Assembly (NCBI GenBank): GCA_020050375.1
Contig: JAGVKR010000437.1
Coordinates: 1-13,458 of the forward strand
Reading direction: 5' to 3'
DNA: 13,458 nucleotides
Source of the DNA: Planctomycetales bacterium
GTDB taxonomy: Bacteria; Planctomycetota; Planctomycetia; Planctomycetales; Planctomycetaceae
Shown here piece by piece: positions 188 to 13,458 of this stretch. Both the position numbers and the translations under genes were made by a program. Position 1 is the first letter of the stretch. Every line of letters starts with the position of its first letter. A model generated the notes under the pieces. It was not told where the DNA came from, did not search any database, and saw nothing but the letters and a program-made list of their open reading frames with translations.

Positions 188-199
188 CGCAAGACAATA

Positions 200-1306
200 A
201 TGGTACATGTTCGGCGACGAATGTTTGTCTATGTATGCTGCGCATCTATTCTGTACGCATTGACTCCATTAGCAGTTGCCGATGATGTGTCACCATCCTT
301 AGATGATGTGCGCGTTGCATGGGAGGCACGGCAAGATGCGTGCCATTCTGTGCGGTATGTTTGGATTGAACTTGAGACTACAATGAAAGGCGTCGAACTT
401 GCTTCACTCCCGGAACCCAATGGCATCTATCCCGCAGAAGATACCAAGTCTGAACACCGTTGCTCGCTGTCGATTTCAGAAATGAAGATCGCGATTGAGC
501 GACGCGGGCCTTACTGGAGTACGGAGCTTCGCCGATTCGAACAAAAGGCTTACCGCGCAGTCTTCGACGGCGCTGCCAGCAAGAATCTGTATTCGGGGCC
601 GGCGTATCCAATGAACGCTGTAGGTTTTATCACCAGCGAAGTTGCCTTCCAAGATCGTACCGATTTTCATCTCCGAGCTGTGGCACTTTTACATCGACCT
701 CTTGTGCCGGCGTTAGGAGGCATCGATCTTGAACGGTGGACAGCGTCGGAGAATACGGAAGCTTTACGTGACCTCAACTGCTTAATCCTGACGGATGAAG
801 CCAGCGGAGAGCGGTTATGGCTGGATGTGGCACGCGGCTTCTTGGTCGTACGGCAAGAGATCGTTTCCAACGGCAGTGCTGTTCAGCGTCTTGAGGTGGA
901 GTATACCCGCGATACAAATGGTTTCGACCTCGTTCAAAAATGGGAAAATGCTTTACTCCATCCCGGGTCAGGTACAATACGGAAGTCACTGTCATCGCGA
1001 GTCGTTGAAACGGTTGTCAATGAACCGATCGGTGAATCCGAGTTCGACATCAAATATCCAGCAAACACGATCATTCGTGATGACCGTGATGAAAACACGT
1101 ATCGCGTAGACCGCCAAGGAAAGCTTGTGCTTCTTCCCAAGGATATCCAGCGAAGCAGCGTCGCGATTGACGAAGACAACAGCAATGGGATTGACAATAA
1201 CAGCAGGCCTAACGGTCGTTGGACCACGTTAATCATTGTAAATTCAGTTTTAGCGCTTCTATTAATTGCCGGCTTGTTGTGCCGAAGGCTGTATAAGTCA
1301 AAATAG
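200..1306 (+). CDS. Unrecognised exported protein with C-terminal membrane anchor; possibly LolA-like fold
   Basis: This 368-residue protein is not recognised with certainty. Residues 1-27 form a signal peptide: MVHVRRR, a hydrophobic core, and AVA|DD as probable cleavage site. Residues 28-316 are a soluble domain. Residues 317-340 are an Asn/Asp-rich linker. Residues 341-361 are one hydrophobic helix followed by RRLYKSK, which predicts a type I topology with most of the protein outside the cytoplasm. The opening WEARQ..C.SVRYVW, the segment SGERLWLDVARGFLVVRQE (202-220) and the later NEPI.ESEFDIKYPA..II (274-292) recall LolA/LolB-like beta-sheet proteins frequent in planctomycetes. That is inference from pattern only. 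No Shine-Dalgarno site is clear before ATG 200 or before the alternative ATG 221. It lies 12 nt after rplB, so it is probably co-transcribed, and its base composition is less GC-rich than the ribosomal genes. Confidence 0.75.
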   Translation: MVHVRRRMFVYVCCASILYALTPLAVADDVSPSLDDVRVAWEARQDACHSVRYVWIELETTMKGVELASLPEPNGIYPAEDTKSEHRCSLSISEMKIAIERRGPYWSTELRRFEQKAYRAVFDGAASKNLYSGPAYPMNAVGFITSEVAFQDRTDFHLRAVALLHRPLVPALGGIDLERWTASENTEALRDLNCLILTDEASGERLWLDVARGFLVVRQEIVSNGSAVQRLEVEYTRDTNGFDLVQKWENALLHPGSGTIRKSLSSRVVETVVNEPIGESEFDIKYPANTIIRDDRDENTYRVDRQGKLVLLPKDIQRSSVAIDEDNSNGIDNNSRPNGRWTTLIIVNSVLALLLIAGLLCRRLYKSK

Positions 1307-1517
1307 CGGACTGTGTGGACATTAGGACGTCATTGGCAATTATTGTTGTTTCGTCGTTTTGCTGAACTATACCTATGGCTGTCGCGACCTCGAATCAGCT
1401 GAGCGGGGGTAAAGGTCGAGGTGGAGATCCGGAAACGGTGATATTTGTCAATTTCCCGCAAAGTAGAATTGGCTCAGCTTCGACAGACTTGTTCAGGAGG
1501 CTTTGAGTGCTTTCGTA

Positions 1518-1534
1518 TCGACTATAGTAGTCGA
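1518..1534 (+). promoter_or_regulatory. Perfect 7-bp inverted repeat, 3-nt loop
   Basis: TCGACTA-TAG-TAGTCGA. The element lies between the two copies of the ribosome-binding region and contains the stop codon of the six-codon upstream reading frame. It could be a leader hairpin controlling translation of the next gene or a protein-binding dyad. Function is inferred only. Confidence 0.5.
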
Positions 1535-1566
1535 GCGTTGGTGATTGTGGATTAAGCGACTTTTTC

Positions 1567-1573
1567 AGGAGGG
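1567..1573 (+). promoter_or_regulatory. Strong ribosome binding site deciding start 1581
   Basis: AGGAGGG lies 7 nt before ATG 1581. It is among the strongest Shine-Dalgarno sites in the window and fixes the start of the Cys-rich gene. The in-frame ATG at 1632 has no such site. Confidence 0.85.
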
Positions 1574-1580
1574 TTAACGA

Positions 1581-2024
1581 ATGCTTTCTCAAGAACTTCG
1601 TGGGTGGCGTCTTGGCCCGTCAATTGATTTTATGAATGCTGTTGTTGCGATAATGCTGATCGCAAGTGCTGGTCGGGCTGTGCATGCCGCGTGTGCGGCA
1701 AAGTGCATTAACACCCTGGACTTCACGCAATGGACCTCTTCGGGTGACACGGATCCTAACCATATTATGACATACAGGATCATTACAAGTGGCGGGTGTA
1801 ACCGAATTTGGATGACAGCAGAAACCACTGCAAAAGGATGCACTAAAGGCAGTTCCAACAGCAATAGGCAGTACAAGCAATTAACCGGTCCAACGTGTAC
1901 GATTGACTGCTGGTCGAACGGAGGCGTTAATGGGCGATGGAAAACGTGCTCTGGTGGTAATCTGATCGGGGATGCGAATACAATCGAGTGCTGGGATATG
2001 GGTTGCGAGGATTGTGCAGGCTAA
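1581..2024 (+). CDS. Unrecognised small secreted cysteine-rich protein
   Basis: This 147-residue protein belongs to no family that I recognise. Residues 1-36 look like a signal peptide: basic start (MLSQELRGWR), hydrophobic core around VVAIMLIASAG, and probable cleavage at VHA|AC. The mature part of about 111 residues has ten cysteines (38, 42, 73, 87, 106, 110, 123, 137, 142, 145), an even number that allows five disulfides. It is rich in Gly, Thr, Ser, Asn and Trp, like a small stable extracellular domain. ATG 1581 is chosen for its AGGAGGG site and because an ATG 1632 start would lose the charged N-region. It lies 274 nt after the anchored exported protein and 47 nt before rpsS, and sampled stretches are less GC-rich than the ribosomal genes. 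A partner role with the upstream gene is possible, but only position suggests it. Confidence 0.8.
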   Translation: MLSQELRGWRLGPSIDFMNAVVAIMLIASAGRAVHAACAAKCINTLDFTQWTSSGDTDPNHIMTYRIITSGGCNRIWMTAETTAKGCTKGSSNSNRQYKQLTGPTCTIDCWSNGGVNGRWKTCSGGNLIGDANTIECWDMGCEDCAG

Positions 2025-2031
2025 ATAGCCT
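2018..2031 (+). terminator. Small hairpin over the stop of the Cys-rich gene
   Basis: AGGCT-AAAT-AGCCT forms a 5-bp stem that includes the TAA stop at 2022-2024. No T-run follows, so it is a weak terminator candidate. It may simply mark the 3' edge of the inserted block. Confidence 0.25.
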
Positions 2032-2071
2032 AAGGCATTAACAACGTGCGTGGAGTGCAGGAGCTGAAGTC

Positions 2072-2362
2072 ATGGGTCGTTCGCTGAAAAAAGGTCCCTT
2101 TGTGGACGTCAAGCTCATGAAGAAAGTCGAGCAGAGGATCCGCTCGAGCTCCAAGGAGCCGATCAAGACCTGGTCGCGGCGGTCGACGATCCCTCCCGAG
2201 TTCATCGGCTATACGTTTCTGGTCCACAACGGACGGACGCACCTGAATGTCTATGTGACCGAAGAGATGGTGGGACACAAGCTCGGAGAGTTCGCTCCGA
2301 CGCGCACGTTCCGCGGCCATGGTGGCAAGACGTCGAAGAAGGAAGCCGCTGCCGCCGGGTAG
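2072..2362 (+). CDS. rpsS: 30S ribosomal protein S19
   Basis: S19 binds the 3' domain of 16S rRNA in the head of the small subunit, next to S13. The 96-residue product opens with the family signature [12 protein letters not shown]. It carries the conserved core [20 protein letters not shown] (about 30-52) and the motif [17 protein letters not shown] (about 68-84). The length is normal, with an Ala-rich end (KKEAAAAG). The start ATG has GGAG in CAGGAGCTGAAGTC upstream. It would normally follow rplB directly, but here a block of nearly 1.9 kb with two unrelated genes comes between them. rplV follows after 107 nt. Confidence 0.98.
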
Positions 2363-2469
2363 CCACAATTGTCAGCGGGGTACGCGGCGCGAGTCGTCGC
2401 GACGGACGTGTTTCGAGCACGGCCGGAGTGAGAGAAAAAAAGGCAGATCGAGTTTGAGGAGCGTGGTCC

Positions 2470-2808
2470 ATGGCATTTACCGCCAAACACAAGTTCGCCC
2501 GCATTGCCGCGACGAAGGTTCGGCCGTTCACAGATTTGATCCGCGGCCGGGCCGCGGGCGAAGCGCTGGAACTGTTGCGCTACGTCCCCAATCGCGGCGC
2601 GAGAATGCTCGAGAAGGTGCTGAAAAGCGCGATGGCGAACGCCGAAGACCAGGGGGCGCGGAACGTCGACCGCATGCGAATCGTCGACGCCCGGGCCGAC
2701 AACGGGCCGATGTTCAAGCGAATCATGCCTCGGGCCCGCGGAATGGCCTACCTGATCCGACGGCGTTTCGCGCATATTCAGGTGGCAATCGAATCGCCCG
2801 CGGCGTGA
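2470..2808 (+). CDS. rplV: 50S ribosomal protein L22
   Basis: L22 binds 23S rRNA, and its long beta-hairpin lines the peptide exit tunnel. The 112-residue product has the expected course: a basic start (AKHKFARIAATKVRPFTDLIRG), the helix EALELLRYVPNRGARMLEKVLKSAMANAE (about 32-60), and the tunnel-loop end with ARGMAYLIRRRFAHIQV (about 90-106). Length is typical of the family. The start ATG follows GAGGAG (2456-2461) by 8 nt. The gap from rpsS is 107 nt with no gene. After the stop comes a 186-nt spacer with tandem repeats and hairpins before rpsC, where most bacteria have the two genes touching or overlapping. Confidence 0.98.
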   Translation: MAFTAKHKFARIAATKVRPFTDLIRGRAAGEALELLRYVPNRGARMLEKVLKSAMANAEDQGARNVDRMRIVDARADNGPMFKRIMPRARGMAYLIRRRFAHIQVAIESPAA

Positions 2809-2821
2809 TGCGAGGCCATCC

Positions 2822-2875
2822 GGGTTGAAGAGGTGCAGACGGGTTGAAGAGGTGCAGAGTTGAAGAGATAGAGAG
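2822..2875 (+). repeat. Tandem 19-bp repeat, two and a half copies
   Basis: GGGTTGAAGAGGTGCAGAC (2822-2840) and GGGTTGAAGAGGTGCAGAG (2841-2859) differ at one base. A partial third unit, TTGAAGAGATAGAGAG, follows. The core GTTGAAGAG appears three times here and twice in reverse complement in the rplR-rpsE gap (8304-8312 and 8320-8328), so it is a dispersed spacer repeat. Confidence 0.85.
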
Positions 2876-2890
2876 CAAAAAGCAACGATC

Positions 2891-2934
2891 CAATTCGCGA
2901 CAACAGGGCTTGCCCTCTTCGCGTGTCTGAATTG
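2891..2934 (+). repeat. Imperfect inverted repeat in rplV-rpsC gap
   Basis: Outer arms CAATTC (2891-2896) and GAATTG (2929-2934) enclose the inner arms AGGGC-TT-GCCCT. The middle part pairs poorly. It is a weak RNA hairpin or dyad candidate. Confidence 0.4.
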
Positions 2935-2948
2935 AAAGCAATAAAGTC

Positions 2949-2970
2949 GCGTGGAATCCACCACGCTTTT
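2949..2970 (+). terminator. Terminator-like hairpin or attenuator upstream of rpsC
   Basis: GCGTGG-AATCCA-CCACGC is a perfect 6-bp stem followed by TTTT. It sits 24 nt before the rpsC start, inside the operon. A full stop here would cut off all the downstream genes, so partial termination or attenuation is more likely. The T-run is short, which limits confidence. Confidence 0.4.
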
Positions 2971-2994
2971 CGAGTCTTAAAGGTGTGATTGGCT

Positions 2995-3696
2995 ATGGGT
3001 CAAAAAACACGACCGACGGGTTTCCGGGTTGGGATCGTCGAAGATTGGCGCAGCCGCTGGTACGCCTCGAAGAAGGAATTCGGGGACCTGCTCGTCGAAG
3101 ATTTCAAGATCCGGCAGTTCGTCAAGAAAAAATACCTGTTCGCCGGCATCCCGAAGATCGAGATCGAGCGGACGCGCGACATGGTGATCGTGATTCTGCA
3201 CTGCGCGCGGCCGGGGATCATCATCGGTCGCAAGGGGCAGGAAGTCGATCGGTTGAAAGCGGAGCTCGAAGATCTGACCGGCCGACGGATGGATCTGAAA
3301 ATCATCGAGATCAGCAACGCCAATCGCAGCGCGCAGCTCGTGGCGGAAGACATCGCGCAGCAGCTCGAAAAGCGGTCGAGCTTCCGCCGAACAATCAAGC
3401 GAAGCCTCGACCAGGTGATGGAAGCCGGCGTCAAAGGGATCAAGATTCAGTTGTCGGGCCGTCTCGGGGGAGCGGAAATGTCGCGGTGCGAGAAAGCCGG
3501 CCGCGGCTCGATTCCACTCTCGACGTTGCAGGAACATATCGATTACGGGTTCGCTCAGGCACAGACCGCGCAAGGCGTGATTGGCGTGAAGGTCTGGATC
3601 GGCCTGGGCCCATATGCAGAAGAGGAAGCCAACGATGGCGTTAATGCCAAAGCGGGTCAAGCACCGCAAAAGCCAAAGAAGGCGCATAAGAGGTAA
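2995..3696 (+). CDS. rpsC: 30S ribosomal protein S3
   Basis: S3 sits at the mRNA entry of the small subunit. The 233-residue protein starts MGQKTRPTGFRVGI, followed by W.SRWYA. It has a KH domain with the GRKG loop at about residues 78-81. The C-terminal S3 domain carries SGRLGGAEMSR.E (about 154-166), IDYGFA and GVKVWI (about 182-202). ATG 2995 is chosen over the in-frame TTG 2989 because AAAGGTG (2979-2985) lies 9 nt upstream of it and MGQK is the family start. The last 20 codons overlap the start of rplP in another frame, and the S3 tail (NAKAGQAPQKPKKAHKR) is therefore produced by that overlap. Such basic variable tails are common in S3. A 186-nt structured spacer precedes the gene. Confidence 0.97.
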   Translation: MGQKTRPTGFRVGIVEDWRSRWYASKKEFGDLLVEDFKIRQFVKKKYLFAGIPKIEIERTRDMVIVILHCARPGIIIGRKGQEVDRLKAELEDLTGRRMDLKIIEISNANRSAQLVAEDIAQQLEKRSSFRRTIKRSLDQVMEAGVKGIKIQLSGRLGGAEMSRCEKAGRGSIPLSTLQEHIDYGFAQAQTAQGVIGVKVWIGLGPYAEEEANDGVNAKAGQAPQKPKKAHKR

Positions 3697-4054
3697 TGCG
3701 ACTCGCGGCCATCGGGTCTCACTTGGAGACTACGGGTTGCAGTCGCTGCAGGGGGGTTACGTCAAGGCCACGACCATCGAGGCCTGCCGCGTCGCCGCCA
3801 TGCAATACATTCGCGGCGACGGCAAGCTGTATATCCGGATCTTCCCGCACAAGCCCGTGACCGCGCGTCCTCTGGAAACGCGGATGGGTAAGGGAAAGGG
3901 AGAGCCCGATCACTGGGTGGCCGTCGTCAAGTCGGGAACCGTGATGTTCGAAGTCGCGGGTTTGCCGCAGGAAGCGGCGCGGGAATGCCTGGCGCGGATC
4001 GCCTACAAGTTGCCGGTGCGCGTTCGAATGGTCGGACGCCGTCCCGGCGAATGA
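3635..4054 (+). CDS. rplP: 50S ribosomal protein L16
   Basis: L16 binds 23S rRNA near the A-site tRNA and helps organise it. The 139-residue protein shows MPKRVKHRKSQRRRIRG, the GDYGLQ..QGGYV motif, IEACRVAAMQYI, KLYIRIFPHKPVTARPLETRMG (about 67-88), GKGEPDHWVAVVKSG and AR.CLARIAYKLPV. ATG 3635 is chosen because GAGGAAG (3621-3627) lies 7 nt upstream. The next ATG, 3644, would also give a normal protein, and ATG 3614 is too far upstream. The gene begins 62 nt inside the 3' end of rpsC in a different frame, so both proteins share that stretch and translation may be coupled. A 127-nt gap with a repeated GC-rich motif follows. Confidence 0.97.
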   Translation: MALMPKRVKHRKSQRRRIRGNATRGHRVSLGDYGLQSLQGGYVKATTIEACRVAAMQYIRGDGKLYIRIFPHKPVTARPLETRMGKGKGEPDHWVAVVKSGTVMFEVAGLPQEAARECLARIAYKLPVRVRMVGRRPGE

Positions 4055-4088
4055 GCGTTTGAGAACTGCGGGTGTGTGAGTCGTGCAG

Positions 4089-4133
4089 GGTGGGCCAGGC
4101 CCGCCAGAACCAGTCCGGTGGGCCTGTCCCGCC
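4089..4133 (+). repeat. GC-rich dispersed motif, two copies
   Basis: GGTGGGCCAGGCCCGCC (4089-4105) and GGTGGGCCTGTCCCGCC (4117-4133) differ at two bases and are 28 nt apart. Each is partly self-complementary. A related form, GGTGGGCCGTCCCACC, occurs at 7118-7133 in another gap. It looks like a small spacer repeat and overlaps no gene. Confidence 0.7.
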
Positions 4134-4181
4134 AATGTTTCATCAGTGTTGCCGGTCGGTACGATCGCCGGAGTGAGAATC

Positions 4182-4406
4182 ATGGCCAAAGCCAAAGAGT
4201 TGCGGGAGATGAGCGAAGATCAGCTCAACTTCTCGCTGAAGGAAGCGCGCGAAGATCTGTTCAAGTTGAAGTTTCAGGCGTCGACCGAAAAGCTCGACGC
4301 CCCCAGCAGCTTGCGTAAGATGCGCCGCGAGATTGCCCGCATGCAGACGATCCTCGGCGAACGTGCGCGAGCCGCAGCCGGAAAAGCATCGGCCGCCGGC
4401 GCCTGA
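4182..4406 (+). CDS. rpmC: 50S ribosomal protein L29
   Basis: L29 is a small, mostly helical protein at the exit of the peptide tunnel, near L23, where nascent-chain factors dock. The 74-residue product begins MAKAKELREMSEDQL, continues EAREDLFKLKFQAST (about 21-35), and ends with the second helix LRKMRREIARMQTIL.ER (about 44-62) and an Ala-rich tail. This is the normal family pattern and length. ATG 4182 is chosen because the homologous sequence starts there and GGAGTGAG (4170-4177) lies just upstream. The open frame extends back to 4083 but encodes unrelated GC-rich spacer sequence. rpsQ follows after 118 nt that contain a small hairpin. Confidence 0.95.
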   Translation: MAKAKELREMSEDQLNFSLKEAREDLFKLKFQASTEKLDAPSSLRKMRREIARMQTILGERARAAAGKASAAGA

Positions 4407-4418
4407 ACGAACCACCAG

Positions 4419-4435
4419 GCCGCAAACTGTGCGGC
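4419..4435 (+). repeat. Hairpin in rpmC-rpsQ gap
   Basis: GCCGCA-AACTG-TGCGGC is a perfect 6-bp stem with a 5-nt loop just after the rpmC stop. No T-run follows. It may stabilise mRNA or be incidental in GC-rich sequence. Confidence 0.4.
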
Positions 4436-4524
4436 GACGAAGCAAAACAAGATAAAACAACACGACTAATCAGCGACAGCACTCGCAACAGAATAACGAA
4501 CAGAGTTAACGAGGAACGGCAGAC

Positions 4525-4788
4525 ATGCGTAGACGAGCGATTGGCACTGTAACGCGCGACAAGACGCTGAAAACGCGACGGGTTGAAGTCCCTCGGCTGT
4601 ATCAGCATCCGAAATACGGGAAGACGCTCAAAACGACAACGATCTGTTACGCCCACGACGAGACCAACCAGTCGCACAACGGCGACCTGGTCGAGATCGT
4701 CGAGAGCCGGCCGCGGTCGAAAACCAAGCGTTGGGAACTGGTTCGGATCGTGACCAAGTCGACGAGCGTAAAGGTCGAGACAGTTTGA
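4525..4788 (+). CDS. rpsQ: 30S ribosomal protein S17
   Basis: S17 is a primary 16S rRNA-binding protein with an OB fold in the body of the small subunit. The 87-residue product has RRRAIGTVTRDKTLKTRRVEV at the start, the KYGKTLKTTTICYAHDE segment (about 30-46), the conserved GDLVEIVESRP (about 53-63) and SKTKRWELVRIV (about 65-76). Length is typical. The start ATG is preceded by GAGGAA about 8-10 nt upstream. The spacer before it (4436-4510) is unusually A-rich for this window. The 147-nt gap to rplN shows no gene and no clear structure. Confidence 0.97.
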   Translation: MRRRAIGTVTRDKTLKTRRVEVPRLYQHPKYGKTLKTTTICYAHDETNQSHNGDLVEIVESRPRSKTKRWELVRIVTKSTSVKVETV

Positions 4789-4935
4789 TGTGAGCGTCCG
4801 CCGGAGCCGCCGAACGGGAGGTGACGTGCCTTCCCAAGAGGCCGTCCGGCGACTCGCGGTTGGTCCCTGGGGGTTTCCGCCGGCAAGGCAGACAGAGCGC
4901 GAAGGCGCGCCACGGACAAGAGGCAGGATAACGTT

Positions 4936-5304
4936 ATGATTCAGATGCAGTCGTTGATGGACGTCGCCGACAACACCGGCGCCAAGGTCGCTTATTGCAT
5001 CAAGGTGCTGGGGGGGACGAGCCGTCGGACTGCCGGTCTGGGCGACATCGTCGTCGTCAGCATCAAGAAGGCGATTCCCGGGGCCGCGGTCAAGGCGGGC
5101 GATGTGGTGCGGGGGGTCATCGTTCGCTGTCGCAAGGCGACGCGCCGCTCCGACGGGAGCTATGTGCGGTTCGACAAGAACGCCATTGTGCTTATCGACG
5201 GCGAATTGAATCCCAAGGGAACCCGCATTTTCGGAGCCGTCGCCCGCGAGTTGCGCGACCGTCGCTTCATGAAGATCATCAGTCTGGCGAGTGAGGTGGT
5301 GTGA
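4936..5304 (+). CDS. rplN: 50S ribosomal protein L14
   Basis: L14 binds 23S rRNA and forms part of the intersubunit bridge with 16S helix 14. The 122-residue length is exactly that usual for the family. Visible signatures are [17 protein letters not shown], the [23 protein letters not shown] stretch (about 35-57), [23 protein letters not shown] (about 56-79), NAIVLID, and the end [25 protein letters not shown]. An AGGCAGG site lies before ATG 4936. The TGA stop (5302-5304) lies 2 nt before the rplX start, so the two genes are probably translationally coupled. Confidence 0.98.
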
Positions 5305-5306
5305 AG

Positions 5307-5660
5307 ATGAAAATCAAGCGCGGCGACATGGTGCAGGTGACTGCGGGAGACGACGCCAGCAGTTCGCCTCGAAAGGTTCTGCAAGTCGTGGACGACGGCA
5401 AAAAGGTCGTTGTCGAAGGGGTCAATCGCGTCTACAAGCATGTGAAGCGGGGCCATCCCAAGAGTCCGCAGGGGGGCCGTCTCTCGCTGGAGATGCCGAT
5501 TGACATCTCGAATGTGCTGCTTTACTGTAACGCCTGCGGCCGCGGGGTCCGGGTGGGATTCAAATACAAAGCGGATGGCAGCAAGGCCCGGCTCTGTCGT
5601 AAGTGCCAGGCCGAGCTCGGGGTCGTGAGTCCACCGAAGGCGAAATATGCGGCGCGCTAA
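5307..5660 (+). CDS. rplX: 50S ribosomal protein L24, with zinc-ribbon cysteines
   Basis: L24 is an early-assembly 23S rRNA-binding protein. The 117-residue product starts with the KOW-type segment MKIKRGDMVQVTAG and continues VLQVVDDGKKVVVEGVNRVYKHV (about 24-46). Near the C-terminus the pairs C74-x2-C77 and C97-x2-C100 (CNACGRG...CRKC) predict a zinc ribbon, a form known in many L24 proteins. ATG 5307 is preferred over GTG 5301 because GAGGTGG in the end of rplN then has suitable spacing. GTG 5301 would instead overlap the rplN stop by 4 nt. rplE follows after 74 nt. Confidence 0.96.
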   Translation: MKIKRGDMVQVTAGDDASSSPRKVLQVVDDGKKVVVEGVNRVYKHVKRGHPKSPQGGRLSLEMPIDISNVLLYCNACGRGVRVGFKYKADGSKARLCRKCQAELGVVSPPKAKYAAR

Positions 5661-5734
5661 ACCGGCCGCGCCGAGTGCCCGCTTCTTACGCTGTCGATGC
5701 GAAAGCGACGGCGATTTCAGGGTGATGTGACGTT

Positions 5735-6298
5735 ATGGCGAGATTGTCCGAGAAGTACACCAAAGAAATCCAACCGCGACTGGCCAAGTCGCTGGGGCAG
5801 AACAATACGCACGCCGTCCCGCGGCTGACAAAAATTGTTGTCAACATGGGAGTTGGCGCAGCCTCGCAAGACCGCAAGCGGCTTGAAGAGGCCGTCGGCC
5901 ACCTGGCGACGATCACCGGGCAGAAGCCGCTCGTGACCAAAGCCAAGAAAGCCGTTTCGGCGTTTCGGCTCCGGGAAGGGATGGAGATTGGCGCCAAAGT
6001 CACGTTGCGCGGCCGACGGATGTACGAATTCCTCGACCGGCTGATCTCGCTGGCCCTGCCTCGCGTTCGCGACTTTCGTGGACTCAGCCCCACGGCGTTT
6101 GACGGGCACGGCAACTACACGCTGGGGCTCAGCGAGCAGCTCGTGTTTCCCGAAATCGACGCCGACAAGGTCACGCACACGCAGGGAATGCACATCACGC
6201 TGGTGACGACGGCCCACAGCGACGACGACGCACGGGCGCTGTTGAAAGAGCTGGGGATGCCGCTGAGTGTCGAGGAGACGAAAAAAGCCCGATCGTGA
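5735..6298 (+). CDS. rplE: 50S ribosomal protein L5
   Basis: L5 binds 5S rRNA and helps place the central protuberance. The 187-residue product has the family marks [12 protein letters not shown] (about 30-41), [20 protein letters not shown] (about 65-84), [23 protein letters not shown] (about 85-108), [28 protein letters not shown] and the C-terminal [10 protein letters not shown]. Length is normal for bacterial L5. Only a weak AGGGTGAT-type site precedes ATG 5735. A 118-nt gap with a small hairpin leads to rpsZ. Confidence 0.98.
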
Positions 6299-6388
6299 TG
6301 CGGCCCGATCGACGCGCGAGCGTCAGCCGCAACCGACCGCAGTGACTAGTACGAAACATCGCGATCCCAAGTGCCCCTGAAACGAGTA

Positions 6389-6403
6389 CGGGGTAACGCC
6401 CCG
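6389..6403 (+). repeat. Hairpin just before the rpsZ ribosome binding site
   Basis: CGGGG-TAACG-CCCCG is a 5-bp stem with a 5-nt loop. Its 3' arm runs into the CGGAG (6402-6406) that serves rpsZ, so folding could partly hide that site. The stem is short and the idea is speculative. Confidence 0.3.
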
Positions 6404-6416
6404 GAGTAGAACAGCT

Positions 6417-6602
6417 ATGGCGAGCAAGGCGAAAATCGAAAAGGCGAACCGTACGCCGAAGTTCAGTTGCCGCGGCGAGCGGCGCTGCCAGTTGTGCGGC
6501 CGCCCGCGGGCGGTTTACCGCAAGTTCAAGGTGTGCCGGTTGTGCTTCCGCAACCTGGCCCTCGATGGTTTGATTCCTGGTGTGAAGAAGGCGAGCTGGT
6601 GA
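6417..6602 (+). CDS. rpsZ: 30S ribosomal protein S14, zinc-binding short type (type Z)
   Basis: S14 binds 16S rRNA in the head of the small subunit. At 61 residues this is the short form that holds one zinc ion. The ligands are visible as C24-x2-C27 (CQLC) and C40-x2-C43 (CRLC), with [19 protein letters not shown] between and around them. It starts [16 protein letters not shown] and ends IPGVKKASW, both usual. CGGAG lies 10 nt before ATG 6417. The stop is only 4 nt from the rpsH start, so the two are tightly linked. The long zinc-free S14 was not seen in this window. Confidence 0.97.
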
Positions 6603-6606
6603 TCCG

Positions 6607-7002
6607 ATGATGACCGACCCCATTGCCGACATGTTGACGCGAATTCGCAATTCGGTGGCGATCGAGCGTCCCTCGGTTGATATTCCGGCTTCTCAGGAGA
6701 AGCTCGGCCTGGCGCAGGTGCTGCAGCGCGAAGGATACATCTGGGATTTCGAAGTTGTCGAAGAGCGCCCGGTCAACGTGCTGCGAATCAACCTCAAGTA
6801 CGGTCCCAACGGCGAGCGCGTCATCCAGGAAATCAAACGGGTCAGCAAGCCCGGTTGCCGCGTGTACCGCAAAGCCAAAGATGTCCCCGTCGTGCTGCAG
6901 GGATTGGGGATCAGCATCCTGTCGACGAGCCAGGGGATCCTCAGCAACCGTGAAGCCAAGCAAAAAGGGATCGGCGGCGAAGTTCTGTGCAGCGTGCTCT
7001 GA
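6607..7002 (+). CDS. rpsH: 30S ribosomal protein S8
   Basis: S8 binds the central domain of 16S rRNA and in E. coli represses its own spc operon by binding mRNA. No such mRNA site was identified here. The 131-residue product opens MTDPIADMLTRIRNS and ends with the highly conserved STSQGILSNREAKQKG.GGEVLCSV. The start is either ATG 6607 or the adjacent ATG 6610 (MTDP, the commoner family form); the data do not decide. It lies 4 nt after rpsZ. The following 153-nt gap contains an AT-rich nested inverted repeat. Confidence 0.97.
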   Translation: MMTDPIADMLTRIRNSVAIERPSVDIPASQEKLGLAQVLQREGYIWDFEVVEERPVNVLRINLKYGPNGERVIQEIKRVSKPGCRVYRKAKDVPVVLQGLGISILSTSQGILSNREAKQKGIGGEVLCSVL

Positions 7003-7020
7003 ACAGCGAAGCACGAAAAA

Positions 7021-7106
7021 CAAATGTCTAATGAAATCCAAAACTTCAAAAGACAAAAGCTTCGGAATTTGGACGTTTTTGATTTTTGTCTTTCCTAAGA
7101 CATTTG
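7021..7106 (+). repeat. AT-rich nested inverted repeat between rpsH and rplF
   Basis: The outer arms CAAATGTCT (7021-7029) and AGACATTTG (7098-7106) match perfectly. The inner arms AAAGACAAAA (7049-7058) and TTTTGTCTTT (7084-7093) also match perfectly. The whole 86-nt block is strikingly AT-rich against its GC-rich neighbours. It could form a long hairpin and might be a small non-autonomous mobile element, an attenuator or an mRNA-processing site. No target-site duplication is obvious. Confidence 0.75.
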
Positions 7107-7117
7107 AATTTCCGTTC

Positions 7118-7133
7118 GGTGGGCCGTCCCACC
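7118..7133 (+). repeat. GC-rich dispersed motif, third copy
   Basis: GGTGGGCCGTCCCACC is a near-perfect short hairpin (GGTGGG/CCCACC around CCGT). It is related to the two copies at 4089-4133. Confidence 0.6.
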
Positions 7134-7155
7134 CAGTGAATAAGGTCAACGTGCC

Positions 7156-7707
7156 ATGTCTCGGATTGGAAAAAAGCCGGTGCCCGTTCCTGCGGGGGTG
7201 ACCGCCAAGGTGAGCGCGGGAACCTTCTCGGTCAAAGGGCCGCAGGGGGAGCTCTCGCTCAAGTTTCATGCGGCGATGAAAGTCGTTATCGATGAAGCAG
7301 CCAAGCAAGTCGTCGTCGAGCGTCCGGACGACGAACGGGCCAACAAGGCACTGCACGGGCTGACGCGAAGCCTGATCAACAACATGGTCGCCGGCGTCGT
7401 CACGCCGTTCGAGCGCAAGCTGGAAATCGTGGGGGTTGGCTACCAGGCGTCGATCAGCGGCAAGACACTCAATCTGCAGGTCGGTTACGCCAACGTGATC
7501 AAGCTGCCGATTCCGGCGGGGGTCAAGTGTGCCCTCCCCGACAATACTCATATCACGCTGCAAAGCGCCGACAAGCAGGCCGTCGGGCAGTTTGCCGCCG
7601 TGATTCGCAAGGTTCGCCCGCCGGAGCCTTACAAGGGAAAAGGCATTCGATACGAAGGGGAGTACGTGCGTCGCAAGGCGGGCAAGGCGTTCGCCAGCGG
7701 CGGTTAG
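7156..7707 (+). CDS. rplF: 50S ribosomal protein L6
   Basis: L6 binds 23S rRNA near the sarcin-ricin loop and the factor-binding site. The 183-residue product starts MSRIGKKPVPVPAGV, as in most bacteria. It has the two alpha/beta repeats of the family: the first with VKGPQGEL, the second with FERKLEIVGVGYQA (about 78-91). It ends with the signature RPPEPYKGKGIRYEGEYVRRKAGKA. Length is normal. The upstream Shine-Dalgarno match is weak (AAGG at 7142-7145). A 123-nt gap with hairpins separates it from rplR. Confidence 0.98.
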   Translation: MSRIGKKPVPVPAGVTAKVSAGTFSVKGPQGELSLKFHAAMKVVIDEAAKQVVVERPDDERANKALHGLTRSLINNMVAGVVTPFERKLEIVGVGYQASISGKTLNLQVGYANVIKLPIPAGVKCALPDNTHITLQSADKQAVGQFAAVIRKVRPPEPYKGKGIRYEGEYVRRKAGKAFASGG

Positions 7708-7722
7708 GCTACAGATCCGGTG

Positions 7723-7750
7723 GCCGGAACTTGCTTCCGGCGGTCGACCG
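7723..7750 (+). repeat. Hairpin plus 10-bp palindrome in rplF-rplR gap
   Basis: GCCGGAA-CTTGC-TTCCGGC (7723-7741) is a perfect 7-bp stem with a 5-nt loop. It is followed directly by the palindrome CGGTCGACCG (7741-7750). No T-run is present. It could stabilise mRNA or bind a protein. Confidence 0.5.
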
Positions 7751-7830
7751 GCCTTCCCCAGTGGAATGTCATCGGGCAGCAGTCGAAATCGAACAACAGT
7801 CGAAAAGATTCTTGCGGTTGGTTGTGCATC

Positions 7831-8199
7831 ATGAAAATCGAAAAGCGGATCAACAAGCAGCGGCAGGTACGGGCGTGGCGCGTGCGGAAGCGCGTTCGCG
7901 GCACGACGGCGCGTCCGCGGTTGACGGTCTTTCGCAGCAATAAGCACATCTATGCCCAGATCATTGACGATCACGAGGGGCGTTCGATCGTGGCTGCGAG
8001 TACCGCCGAGACGGGCATCTGTCCAAAGGGTGAAAACGGGGGGAACAAGTCGGCGGCCGTGAAGGTCGGGCAGACTCTGGCCGCCCGCGCCCTCGAAAAG
8101 GGAATCAAACTGGTCGCGTTCGATCGCGGACGCTATCGCTATCACGGGCGGATCGCCGCGCTGGCCGAAGCGGCTCGCGACGGCGGCCTGCAGTTCTGA
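7831..8199 (+). CDS. rplR: 50S ribosomal protein L18
   Basis: L18 binds 5S rRNA together with L5 in the central protuberance. The 122-residue product has the basic start [42 protein letters not shown] (about 28-49), a typical S.AE.G...G.NK.AA..VG..LA.RA...GI segment (about 59-93), and the family end [26 protein letters not shown]. No good Shine-Dalgarno site precedes ATG 7831, though the family start fits. The frame extends upstream to 7720 but encodes only spacer-like sequence there. A 149-nt repeat-rich gap follows. Confidence 0.96.
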
Positions 8200-8306
8200 G
8201 TTCAAGAGTGGAAGAGATTGAGAGTTCAAGAGTGGAAGAGTGGCTGGTCGAATGAGCGAGCAATTGACCCGAAGCCGGCCCTTGGCCGGCTGTGTCTCTT
8301 GAACTC
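8198..8306 (+). repeat. Direct repeat and nested inverted repeat between rplR and rpsE
   Basis: GAGTTCAAGAGTGGAAGAG occurs perfectly twice (8198-8216 and 8222-8240). The complement of its first 11 bases, CTCTTGAACTC, lies at 8296-8306. Between these arms is a strong hairpin, AGCCGGCC-CTT-GGCCGGCT (8273-8291). Two more inverse GTTGAAGAG cores follow at 8304-8312 and 8320-8328. The first copy begins in the rplR stop codon. The element could fold into a long two-tier hairpin in DNA or mRNA. Confidence 0.8.
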
Positions 8307-8348
8307 TTCAACTCAGAAACTCTTCAACACCTCCAACAGGGGATCGTC

Positions 8349-8846
8349 GTGGCGGAACAACGCGAAGGCAGAGACAAGCAGCGGAACGATGGCCAGGAAA
8401 AGGTCATTCAGATTCGGCGATGCGCCTGCGTGGTGAAGGGGGGGCGTCGCTTCACCTTCACGGCACTGGTCGTCCTGGGTGACAAATCGGGCAAGGTCGG
8501 CTGGGGCTACGGCAAGGCCACCGAAGTTCCGCAAGCGGTCGAGAAGGCCGTCAAAGGAACCAACCGCAACACGGTCTCGGTCCCGCTGGCCGAGACGACG
8601 ATTCCGCATCAGGTCGAAGGGCGGTACGGCGCCGCACGGGTTGTGCTGGTTCCGGCCATGCCGGGCACCGGCGTGATCGCCGGCAACACGGTGCGGGCCG
8701 TGCTCGAATCGGCGGGAGTCCACGATGTGCTCACCAAGAGCCGCGGCTCAACCAATCCCATGAATCTCGTTCGGGCAACGATGAACGCCCTGAGCAAACT
8801 GCGAACGCGCGACCAGATCGCCCGTTTGCGGGGAGTGACATTCTAA
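8349..8846 (+). CDS. rpsE: 30S ribosomal protein S5
   Basis: S5 lies near the mRNA entry and the decoding region and affects translational fidelity. The 165-residue product has the N-terminal dsRBD-like part ([25 protein letters not shown], about 19-45; [16 protein letters not shown], about 51-67). The C-terminal part carries [34 protein letters not shown] (about 102-137). GTG 8349 is chosen because AGGGGAT lies 4 nt upstream. The in-frame GTG 8292 would add residues read from the repeat-rich spacer. Its TAA overlaps the ATG of rplO by 1 nt, leaving no room for rpmD (L30), which sits here in many bacteria. Confidence 0.96.
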
Positions 8847-9295
8847 TGATACTCAACGACGTCCATCGCGGGATCAAGAAGCGCAAATCGCGGAAGCGCA
8901 TCGGCCGCGGCCCGGGATCGGGCCACGGCAAAACGGCCGGTCGCGGCGAGAAGGGGCATTCGAGTCGGTCGGGCTTTTCGTTCCGACTCGGGTTCGAAGG
9001 GGGCCAGATGCCCATGATGCGCCGCATCGCCAAGCGGGGCTTCAACAACAAGTTTTTTGCCACGAAATATGCGATCCTCAACGTTGCCGCTCTCAACGAG
9101 CTGTTCGACGCGGGGGCGACCGTCGATCCGGCGGCGCTCGAGGCCAAAGGCCTGGTCAAGGGACGCTACGACGCGGTCAAGATTCTCGGCAACGGAGAGC
9201 TGACCAAGAAACTGACAGTGAAGGCGCACCAGTTTTCCGCCTCGGCGATCGCCAAGATCGAGGCGGCGGGCGGAGCGATTGAACGGATTCAATGA
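8846..9295 (+). CDS. rplO: 50S ribosomal protein L15
   Basis: L15 binds 23S rRNA and is needed in late large-subunit assembly. The 149-residue product shows the Gly/Arg-rich N-terminal arm with [21 protein letters not shown] (about 17-37), [19 protein letters not shown] (about 50-68), the [11 protein letters not shown] segment and the C-terminal [21 protein letters not shown]. Length is typical. ATG 8846 overlaps the rpsE stop (TAATG), which suggests coupled translation. A 126-nt gap without visible gene or clear structure precedes secY. Confidence 0.97.
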
Positions 9296-9421
9296 CATCT
9301 CGTCGATCTCCAGGTGCCGGGTCCGATTGTGCGGCGTCCCTCCGGTGGCGTCGGTCCATTGGAGGTCGGCTGTCGGGATCGAAGGCTCCGGTCCTTTCGC
9401 GATTGAGAGGATGACCTGCTC

Positions 9422-10780
<1,359 letters not shown>

Positions 10781-10826
10781 GCGGCCAACGGCGCTGAGAT
10801 GATGAGCGGCAAACGGAGCGTATGGC

Positions 10827-11609
10827 GTGATATCTCTCAAGCGTCCACGTGAAATCGAGTTGATGCGCGAAGCGGGCCGTCTGGTGGCAACGGCACATCG
10901 CGTGATTCGCAGTATGGTCGAACCGGGGGTGACGACGGCCCAGATCGACGAAGCGGTCGAACGGTTGTTCGGCAAGCATGGGGCGACACCGCTGTTCAAG
11001 GGCGTGCCCAACTCGACTCCGGGCAAGTCCGACTTTCCCTCGGTGTGTTGTATTTCGGTCAACGAGCAGATCGTGCACGGCATTCCGGGAGACCGACGGC
11101 TCGAGGCGGGAGATATCGTCAAGGTCGACACCGGTTGCCGGCTGAATGGATGGTGCGGCGATTCGGCATGGACGTATGCGGTGGGTGAAATTGATCCGCT
11201 CAAGCGGCGGTTGATGCAAATCGGTGAAGAGAATCTGTATCTGGCAATCCGCGAGACCGGTCGGAAGAAACGGTGGTCGGAAGTCGCCGACGTGATGGAG
11301 CGACACGTCCGGCAGGCCGGATTCAGCGTGGTGGAGCAGTTCGTCGGGCATGGAATCGGTCGGGAGATGCACGAAGACCCGCAGGTGCCGAATTTCCTGA
11401 GCAGCCAGTTGAAGCGGCACGATTTTCGGCTGGAGCCGGGGTTGGTGGTGGCCATCGAGCCGATGGTCAACGCGGGAACCAAGCATGTCCGGGTGTTGAA
11501 GGACCATTGGACGGTCGAAACGAAGGATCGGAAGCCAAGCGTCCATTTCGAGCATACGGTGGCGATCACGGCCGATGGGCCCGACATTCTGACGCAGCCG
11601 GTGGAATAG
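10827..11609 (+). CDS. map: Methionine aminopeptidase, type I
   Basis: This cytoplasmic enzyme removes the initiator methionine from new proteins whose second residue is small. The 260-residue product has the full set of metal ligands by comparison with the family: D101 (KVDTG), D112 (GDSAWT), H175 (GHGIG), E211 (AIEPM) and E242 (HFEHT). His84 ([10 protein letters not shown]) is the usual conserved substrate-side histidine. The N-terminal extension seen in some type I enzymes is absent, and so is the type II insertion. GTG 10827 is the start: CGGAG (10814-10818) lies 8 nt upstream, and the nearby ATG 10822 meets a stop at once. A 188-nt gap with a promoter follows. Confidence 0.97.
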
Positions 11610-11714
11610 AAGAGCAGAGTTTCGACAATCGTCAAAGGGGGCCAAAGGGCCGCAGTCGGCCGGCGGCGTGTGGATCGGGCCAAAGGTGGATTTTCGTCCC
11701 CAAAACGGCCTCGG

Positions 11715-11732
11715 GTGCCTTGTGAAAGGCAC
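11715..11732 (+). promoter_or_regulatory. Perfect hairpin with GTGA loop, overlapping the -35 region
   Basis: GTGCCTT-GTGA-AAGGCAC is a 7-bp stem closed by a GNRA-type tetraloop. GTTTCGTTACTT follows, which is T-rich. As RNA it could be the intrinsic terminator of the transcript ending in map. As DNA it is a dyad covering the -35 box of the promoter at 11720-11749. Both readings fit the sequence. Confidence 0.5.
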
Positions 11733-11749
11733 GTTTCGTTACTTATAAT
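11720..11749 (+). promoter_or_regulatory. Sigma70-type promoter candidate for rpmJ-rpsM-rpsK-rpsD
   Basis: TTGTGA (11720-11725) and a perfect TATAAT (11744-11749) are separated by 18 nt. Transcription would begin near 11756, about 42 nt before rpmJ. It is the best promoter match seen in the window and would make the alpha-type block separately transcribable. Confidence 0.65.
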
Positions 11750-11797
11750 CCGGGGTCCGCCCAGACCGGGCTCCTTGCATGATTTATGTGATTCGCC

Positions 11798-11914
11798 ATG
11801 AAGATTCGAGCCAGCGTCAAACGCATTTGTGAAGGTTGCAAGATCGTCCGCCGCAAGGGGCGCGTGTACGTCATTTGTTCGGCGAATCCCAGGCACAAGC
11901 AGCGTCAGGGGTGA
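11798..11914 (+). CDS. rpmJ: 50S ribosomal protein L36
   Basis: L36 is the smallest large-subunit protein and stabilises 23S rRNA around a bound zinc ion. The 38-residue product reads [20 protein letters not shown], then [18 protein letters not shown]. Its zinc ligands C11, C14, C27 and H33 are all present, so this is the zinc-binding form. The length of 37-38 is usual. No strong Shine-Dalgarno site is seen before ATG 11798. It is the first gene after the candidate promoter at 11720-11749 and is followed by rpsM after 130 nt. infA, which often precedes rpmJ, is not found between map and rpmJ. Confidence 0.96.
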
Positions 11915-12044
11915 AGCGGCGATCGGGTCGGCTTTGGCGCCGGCTGCGAGTGGTCGGGCGATGGTCTCGGGCGAGACGGTCGCGAAAAATGGTCGCGGAC
12001 AGGTGTCGCTGTAATTCGGGTTCAGTGTTTACGGAGTTTTGCGA

Positions 12045-12428
12045 ATGCCGCGTATTTCCGGTGTCGATATCCCGGGCGACAAGCCCACCTATATCTCGCT
12101 GCAGTACCTGTACGGGGTCGGGCAGGCGACGGCGATCAGCATTTGCCGAACGCTCGGCGTCGATCTGCAGCGGCCGGCGAAAGAGCTCAGCGACGACGAC
12201 CTGGCCCGGGTCGCCAACCTGCTCGACAAGGAATACACGATCGAAGGGCAGTTGCGACGCAAGGTTCAGCAGGACATCGCCCGCCTGCGCGACATCGGCT
12301 GCTACCGTGGGCTGCGTCATCGCCGCGGCCTACCGGTGCGCGGGCAGCGAACGCGAACCAACGCCCGCACCCGCAAGGGTGTGCGGAAGACGGTCGCGGG
12401 CAAGAAGGGCGTTAAGGAAATGCGGTAA
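12045..12428 (+). CDS. rpsM: 30S ribosomal protein S13
   Basis: S13 sits in the head of the small subunit, contacts the P-site tRNA and forms intersubunit bridges with the large subunit. The 127-residue product starts [19 protein letters not shown]. It has the helix-two-turn-helix segment [14 protein letters not shown] (about 21-34), and ends with the signature [28 protein letters not shown] and a Lys-rich tail. ATG 12045 is chosen over the in-frame TTG 12039, since CGGAG (12032-12036) lies 8 nt upstream of it. rpsK follows after 101 nt that contain a small hairpin and CAGTC-rich sequence. Confidence 0.98.
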
Positions 12429-12439
12429 CGTATCGGGCG

Positions 12440-12456
12440 CGGGGCGTCGAGCCCCG
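12440..12456 (+). repeat. Hairpin in rpsM-rpsK gap
   Basis: CGGGGC-GTCGA-GCCCCG is a perfect 6-bp stem with a 5-nt loop. It is followed, before rpsK, by several near copies of CAGTC (12471-12511). No T-run is present. Confidence 0.45.
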
Positions 12457-12516
12457 GCTATCGTTCGCCAGTCAGCAGGCTTCTCAGTTCGTCAGTCAGT
12501 CGGCCAGTCATCGATC

Positions 12517-12522
12517 AAGGAG
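12517..12522 (+). promoter_or_regulatory. Ribosome binding site deciding the rpsK start
   Basis: AAGGAG lies 7 nt before GTG 12530. The in-frame TTG at 12524 would be only 1 nt away, so GTG is the start. Confidence 0.8.
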
Positions 12523-12529
12523 CTTGTGC

Positions 12530-12910
12530 GTGAGCAAATCCGCTCGAAAAAAGATTCGCCGCAACGTGACGCGCGCGGTCGCCCACATCAAGGCGACGTT
12601 CAACAATACGACCGTGACGATCACGGACGTCAACGGCGACGTTTTGTGCTGGGCAACAGCCGGCACGTCGGGCTTCAAAGGCAGCCGCAAGAGTACGCCG
12701 TTCGCCGCACAGCGGGCGGCCGAGACCTGCGCCGAGAAGGCCTCGAAGTTCGGCGTCAAGGAGATTGAAGTCCGCGTCAAGGGACCGGGGTCGGGGCGCG
12801 AAAGCGCGATCACCGGGCTGCAGTCGGCGGGACTCACGATCAAGGCGATCGAAGATGTCACGCCGCTGCCGCACAACGGCTGTCGTCCTCCCAAGCGCCG
12901 TCGCGTCTGA
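12530..12910 (+). CDS. rpsK: 30S ribosomal protein S11
   Basis: S11 lies on the platform of the small subunit near the mRNA exit and helps in start-site selection. The 126-residue protein starts at GTG ([20 protein letters not shown]). It carries [18 protein letters not shown] (about 24-41), the conserved [18 protein letters not shown] (about 48-65), [12 protein letters not shown] (about 86-97) and the near-invariant end [18 protein letters not shown]. All core motifs are intact. It is followed by rpsD after 99 nt that hold a small hairpin, as in other alpha-type operons where rpsM, rpsK and rpsD adjoin. Confidence 0.98.
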
Positions 12911-12930
12911 GCCGCGTCAACGTCACGATC

Positions 12931-12954
12931 GAGCTGGGCGCCAGGCGCCGGCTC
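12931..12954 (+). repeat. Hairpin in rpsK-rpsD gap
   Basis: GAGC-TG-GGCG-CCAGG-CGCC-G-GCTC: an inner GGCG/CGCC stem and an outer GAGC/GCTC stem separated by small bulges. No T-run follows. It lies about 55 nt before rpsD. Confidence 0.45.
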
Positions 12955-13009
12955 CCACGAAATATCGTTCAAAGACCACAACGAGCCGACATACGGAAAC
13001 CAATCGACC

Positions 13010-13458
13010 ATGGGACGTTATACAGGACCGGTTTGCAGATTGTGCCGCCGGGAAGGCGTCAAGCTGTTTTTGAAATCTCTGCGGTGCGATTCGCCGAAGT
13101 GCGCCATCGAGCGTCGCGGCGATCAGCAGCCCGGCATGCACATCGTCAAGCGCCGCAAGATCAGCGACTACGGCGCGCGGCTGCGTGAGAAGCAGAAAGT
13201 CAAGCGGTACTACGGCGTGTTCGAGCGGCAGTTCCGCCGCTACATGGACCTCGCCGGCCGCTCGAAAGGGAACACGGGAAGCACGCTGATGAGCCTGCTC
13301 GAACGGCGGCTCGACAACATCGTGCATCGCCTGGGGTTTGCCGGCTCGCGGCGCGCGGCGCGGCAACTGGTGGCGCACGGGCACATCTGCGTCAACGGTC
13401 GCAAGGTGAACATCCCCAGTTTTCTGATCCGGGCGGGAGACACGGTGACGGTCAAGTC
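13010..13458 (+). CDS. rpsD: 30S ribosomal protein S4, N-terminal 149 residues (3' end outside window)
   Basis: S4 starts assembly of the small-subunit body by binding the 5' domain of 16S rRNA. In E. coli it also represses the alpha operon. The fragment begins [16 protein letters not shown] and has four cysteines (C9, C12, C26, C31) that fit the zinc-binding form of S4. Further marks are [21 protein letters not shown] (about 51-71), FRRY, and the S4 RNA-binding domain starting at about residue 98: [38 protein letters not shown]. The frame is open to the window end. No strong Shine-Dalgarno site is clear before ATG 13010. Confidence 0.97.

Follow-up and report, generated by a model that had tools for sequence, protein, structure and literature searches.

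The stretch of DNA analysed here, referred to as the window, is 13,458 nt long and represents one complete contig (C773) of a planctomycete draft genome of 4.38 Mb, which is distributed over 845 contigs and is 66.6% complete. The window opens with the 3' end of rplB (L2; 1 to 187, + strand), the 5' part of which is cut by the contig start, with the C-terminus and the TAG stop codon (185 to 187) present. This is followed by a block at 188 to 2071 on the + strand and then by ribosomal genes from rpsS to rpsD, including secY and map. The rpsS gene (S19; 2072 to 2362, + strand) is intact, with its ATG at 2072 and an AGGAG-like site upstream. Further downstream, rpsC and rplP, which are read in different frames, share about 60 nt (3635 to 3696), an overlap also seen in two close relatives.

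The block carries two genes for exported-type proteins, both on the + strand. ORF1 (200 to 1306) encodes 368 aa and displays two hydrophobic stretches, a signal-like one from residue 8 and a C-terminal transmembrane one from residue 343. ORF2 (1581 to 2024) encodes a small Cys-rich protein of 147 aa with a single hydrophobic stretch from residue 20 and 10 Cys at residues 38 to 145, a C-x3-C pair being found after the signal-like stretch; its start is preceded by AGGAGG. The two genes are separated by an intergenic spacer of 274 nt (1307 to 1580, + strand, GC 0.474), in which no Rfam match was found at gathering scores, and the folding of 1304 to 1580 was no better than that of shuffles (z 0.97). 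An imperfect repeat of the ORF2 ribosome-binding-site region lies at 1486 to 1575 on the + strand, its copies (1486 to 1503 and 1558 to 1575) being 89% alike; the first copy, 72 nt upstream, opens by reading only a very short frame. No ORF of at least 100 aa clear of ORF1 and ORF2 was found in the block, and PADLOC returned nothing. An earlier note on this DNA had described a block of about 1.9 kb with two exported-type genes between rplB and rpsS, and the coordinates, the hydropathy and the ten Cys all agree with that description. The absence of a ribosomal role, claimed in the same place, is likewise supported, since no Pfam or NCBIfam family of any kind, including the ribosomal ones, is matched by ORF1 or ORF2.

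The rplB-rpsS junction in related genomes

In bacteria, the junction between rplB and rpsS is strongly conserved. The junction was surveyed in 170 genomes of the same family, own genome included, using the rplB tail and rpsS as queries, and the gap was taken as the distance between the last aligned position of the rplB tail and the point at which the rpsS match begins. The rplB tail was matched in 149 of the 170 genomes and rpsS in 150, with both ends usable in 149 (own included). Among the 21 genomes with no usable end pair is G103, in which rpsS is at a contig end; in this relative, which belongs to the genus of G009, the contig stops one base before the rpsS start (L091, end of G103:C111).

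In all 149 genomes with both matches, the rplB tail and rpsS are on one contig and in the same orientation. The gap measures 11 to 171 nt in each of the 148 other family genomes compared to 1887 nt in the window, so that the tightness which had been claimed for this junction holds in every other genome measured. G001, which alone among the other genomes carries the same genus label, shows a gap of 148 nt, and G009, which has the best-scoring rpsS, a gap of 23 nt. Direct reading of the locus in 29 relatives, of which 27 belong to the same family and 2 to other families of the class, likewise showed a short junction. Furthermore, over the stretches compared, G009 and G001 share the gene order of the window except for the block, and neither ORF1 nor ORF2 has a match in the corresponding stretches of these two genomes. 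The comparison across relatives proposed in the earlier note hence places the pair at this position in none of the 148 others, and the possibility of an old fixed feature was rejected because of the short gap in all of them. As far as the sequence can show, the insertion is real, and the 148 other genomes compared all lack it.

Expression signals in the block

No obvious Shine-Dalgarno site precedes ORF1, and ORF2 and rpsS each have one. Terminator-like sites number 4 for 2.8 expected (sd 1.8), which is within chance, and the two + strand hits of the block have 5-pair stems. A growth-coupled expression of the pair fits this layout: ORF1 and ORF2 would be transcribed by read-through from rplB, and the expression of rpsS would be left intact by the inserted pair. 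Codon adaptation, which is low compared to that of the ribosomal genes around the block, counts against this reading.

Alternatively, the pair could form an independent transcription unit with its own promoter, read-through playing no part. The codon usage of the pair, which is unlike that of ribosomal genes, is consistent with such a unit, and the 274-nt spacer could hold regulatory DNA, a + strand promoter-like site being found at 1316 to 1343; moreover, the scan used reaches one kind of promoter, other types being outside its scope. However, just 12 nt separate the rplB stop codon from ORF1, the total of promoter-like sites is at chance (2 versus 1.6 expected, sd 1.4) and the + strand site lies past ORF1; we regard an independent unit as unlikely.

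ORF1 and its protein family

Searching 59 relatives with ORF1 gave matches in 7 of them (own included), the best outside the own genome being in G024 at 27% identity, and in 392 genomes of the phylum only the own genome and G005 were matched (2/392, E ≤ 1e-8). No ORF1 match was found in named genome contigs, viral contigs, plasmids or PHROGs. At E ≤ 1e-5, the family to which ORF1 belongs is present in 68 of the 170 family genomes, often in multiple copies and with up to 8 matches per genome. The relatives of ORF1 are planctomycete proteins of about 20-28% identity, one of which is encoded in the same genome, and a leave-one-out profile retrieves ORF1 at E 1.3e-58 with a full-length match. ORF1 is thus a member of a dispersed planctomycete family. 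The possibility of orphan genes was rejected, given how widespread this family is and the profile match. By hydropathy and alignment, ORF1 displays the family features, namely a signal-like N-terminus and a C-terminal membrane stretch followed by basic residues, although the C-terminal stretch is missing from some rows of the family alignment. At two loci, L093 (975 to 3872) and L102 (1852 to 5226), the ORF1-family match lies inside a longer ORF (965 and 1124 aa respectively), suggesting putative domain fusions.

A LolA-like signal was detected in the family. The Pfam family LolA_like (PF17131) matches 1 of 18 ORF1-family members at E 1.5e-4, and the family consensus at E 0.04 with 14 bits for a cut-off of 30, over positions 77 to 178 of 184; ORF1 itself shows no LolA_like match and the family cut-off is not reached. 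Profile searches against solved structures gave weak hits only, the best at E 0.21 and 0.6. The structure model of ORF1 computed with two rows has a mean pLDDT of 36, which is too poor to judge a half-barrel fold, and the model of ORF2 alone (mean pLDDT 38) is unusable. On the basis of this weak LolA-like signal, ORF1 may be a periplasmic carrier tethered to the membrane, its partner being a small protein rich in disulphides. The periplasmic part of ORF1 would be a LolA-like carrier or chaperone domain attached to the inner membrane by the C-terminal helix and would handle ORF2 or a lipid-like ligand, a reading more tentative than that of expression by read-through.

RseB also has a LolA-type fold, and ORF1 could accordingly be an RseB-like envelope stress sensor instead of a carrier, ORF2 being its signal. 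At one ORF1-family locus, L129 (same place as L043), the neighbouring ORFs of the opposite strand resemble, by reading, an ECF sigma factor and a Ser/Thr kinase. The block, however, contains no ECF sigma factor or kinase-type gene and the LolA-type assignment is itself weak; we therefore regard a stress sensor as quite improbable.

ORF2 and the gene cassette

In order to describe the surroundings of the family, 27 ORF1-family loci were examined, which were taken from the stronger matches and not at random, many more matches being listed. A Cys-rich exported-type ORF is found 4-275 nt downstream in 10 of the 27 loci (window included) and upstream in 1, by a rule that was written after the partners had been seen; the other 16 have no Cys-rich neighbour by this rule, some of them being at contig ends. 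As a control, such a Cys-rich ORF was found downstream of none of 101 other ORFs of at least 300 aa in the same loci. At L048, the Cys-rich partner runs antisense to another ORF. In 10 of the 27 loci, the ORF1-family gene is preceded by a DUF1573-like one, 4 of these 10 hits being seeds of the profile used. In Pfam, DUF1573 scores above its cut-off in 4 of 5 upstream proteins scanned (L129, L046, L094 and L095), and below it in L104 and the own-genome copy.

The cassette hence recurs in part of the family. In the own genome, contig C718 bears DUF1573-like, ORF1-like and Cys-rich genes in a row, which form a fuller cassette; in the window, rplB is upstream of ORF1 and there is no DUF1573 gene directly upstream. 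The members of the ORF1 family have differing surroundings in different genomes. Neighbours confirmed by Pfam are a PMT-type glycosyltransferase at L103 and L104 and a DUF1559 pseudopilin at L106, further neighbours of similar kind being assigned by reading. The loci L103, L104, L096 and L107 adjoin a large membrane protein, by reading only in the case of L096 and L107. The content of the block is thus an uncharacterised planctomycete gene family, and its location is the surprising part.

The Cys-rich partners were compared with each other. ORF2 aligns with the Cys-rich protein of L095 at 27% identity over 129 aa (pairwise E 8e-8), and a profile of the nine other partners scores it at 13.9 bits, a marginal result given that the best of 999 shuffles reached 13.4. 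Used alone, ORF2 retrieves only itself among the 59 relatives, and no match to it was found in viral contigs or PHROGs. A profile of all ten partners finds 3 genomes only among the 392 of the phylum, all of them sources of the profile rows. Two Cys following the signal-like stretch are common to all ten partners in the alignment. In view of these results, the Cys-rich partners are very divergent, and common descent is less secure for them than for the ORF1 family. The assignment of ORF2 as the Cys-rich partner of the cassette is fairly supported.

Base composition and codon usage

The block has a GC content of 0.496 compared to 0.604 for 2072 to 13458. The counts made by hand in the earlier note on 60-nt samples, 27 G+C at 1201 to 1260 and 28 at 1741 to 1800 versus 39 at 7381 to 7440, are exact. 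The GC3 and codon bias, which the note had proposed to set against the flanks, set the block apart as well. GC3 is 0.495 for ORF1 and 0.497 for ORF2, whereas it ranges from 0.72 to 0.84 for the genes from rpsS to rpsD including secY and map (rplR excluded) and is 0.656 for the partial rplB end. The CAI relative to ribosomal genes is 0.381 and 0.388 for the two ORFs of the block versus 0.58-0.75 for the ribosomal genes left out in turn, 0.70 for secY and 0.43-0.70 for other genes of the genome. The dinucleotide distance between block and flank, 111, is just over those of all 48 flank windows of the same length (30-108).

The own genome was sampled through 23 contigs, 20 at spaced numbers and 3 holding ORF1-family matches. 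Two of them (L110 and L126) are wholly N and were excluded from the GC windows, giving 21 readable contigs with 139,623 bases and a GC of 0.614. None of the 348 overlapping windows of 1825 bp is as GC-poor as the block, the minimum being 0.542. In mechanically called ORFs of the own genome (73 after filter, of 74), the median GC3 is 0.728 and the minimum 0.506, with none below 0.50.

The earlier note had taken the composition to suggest a different origin. The block is indeed a composition outlier; this does not establish a foreign source, given planctomycete relatives at about 20-28% identity, one of them in the own genome, and a family whose genes tend to be AT-rich themselves. Of 9 other loci that could be compared, which include one from the own genome, 8 have an ORF1-family gene with a GC3 below the neighbour median, by at most 0.015 in 3 cases, and one shows the reverse. 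This test relies on few neighbours per locus; the neighbour value of the window itself was excluded on account of antisense ORFs, and L095 has no neighbours. The GC3 shift of the window is larger than at other ORF1-family loci. No donor was found among the 392 phylum genomes searched with ORF1. As a low GC is frequent in genes of the cassette and the search gave no donor, foreign origin is not claimed: the idea that composition proves it was set aside, and status as a composition outlier does not prove transfer.

The block might also have arrived as the cargo of a mobile element, in keeping with its outlying composition and with a family whose members occur in differing surroundings and at up to 8 matches in one genome. 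Yet ORF1 and ORF2 leave no room for a recombinase gene, as there is no further ORF of at least 100 aa; no repeat of at least 11 nt was found at the block ends except imperfect ones at 76-78%; and searches of viral contigs and PHROGs with both proteins, and of plasmids with ORF1, gave no match. We consider mobile cargo very improbable.

Integrity of the contig

An assembly or binning artefact, in which a metagenome contig would have fused ribosomal operon DNA to an unrelated piece, was considered. The genome is a fragmented draft, the block begins only 187 nt from the contig start, and no second, independent copy of the junction was found in the family genomes or the named genome contigs. Furthermore, rplB (from 153) and rpsS (from 2076) have a 9-base word in common, probably by chance, which sits within an imperfect 21-nt repeat (76%). 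Repeats between both flanks are short and imperfect (21-23 nt at 76-78%). Against an artefact, two joins would be required, both intergenic and both sparing intact genes, and the flanks match the same relatives, the rplB tail being 92% identical to G009 and 90% to G001, and rpsS 86% and 89%. Elsewhere in the (incomplete) genome, the first 2400 nt find only brief matches, of which the best span 23 nt (96%) and 33 nt (85%), and a long repeat of the kind that produces false joins is thus not seen. An error of assembly in the window thus appears unlikely, in view of the like relatedness of the flanks, the intergenic position of the joins, the intact genes and the shortness of all repeats and matches, and a fused metagenome contig is highly improbable.

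Discussion

We lean, with some reserve, towards the reading that the block consists of the two downstream genes of the cassette, placed in the rplB-rpsS spacer after the split from the sampled relatives, with ORF1 as a LolA-like carrier and expression through read-through. An anchored exported protein followed by a small Cys-rich one would have been placed as a pair into this short spacer, and the insertion would date from after the lineage had separated from the relatives sampled here. A bolder proposal, which we regard as possible but doubtful, is that the ribosomal protein operon has captured a small disulphide-rich secreted protein together with the membrane-bound protein that handles it, the output of both now tracking growth rate, and that the cassette is self-contained and has repeatedly dispersed among planctomycetes. 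If this were true, the cassette would be an envelope module able to function at any site it reaches.

An intact two-gene insertion would show that unrelated coding DNA of nearly 1.9 kb can be accommodated at the rplB-rpsS junction. More generally, the results point to a recurring and uncharacterised envelope cassette of planctomycetes, composed of DUF1573, the ORF1 family and a Cys-rich protein and sometimes close to a gene for a PMT-type glycosyltransferase or DUF1559 pseudopilin; the function of this cassette is open to experiment.

Three known systems can be compared with the block. Among the residents of the S10-spc-alpha operon, secY and map are likewise non-ribosomal genes located among ribosomal ones; however, both close relatives examined have them in the same position, whereas ORF1 and ORF2 are absent there. 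The likeness of ORF1 to LolA_like (PF17131), an outer membrane lipoprotein-sorting protein family, consists of the weak matches of one member and of the consensus. LolA is soluble, whereas ORF1 carries a C-terminal membrane anchor. Finally, compared to the planctomycete cassette of DUF1573 (PF07610), ORF1 family and Cys-rich protein, as assembled in the present analysis, the copy in the window has no DUF1573 gene and is located inside the ribosomal operon, but it displays the same succession, an ORF1-family protein being followed by a small Cys-rich one of exported type and identical orientation.
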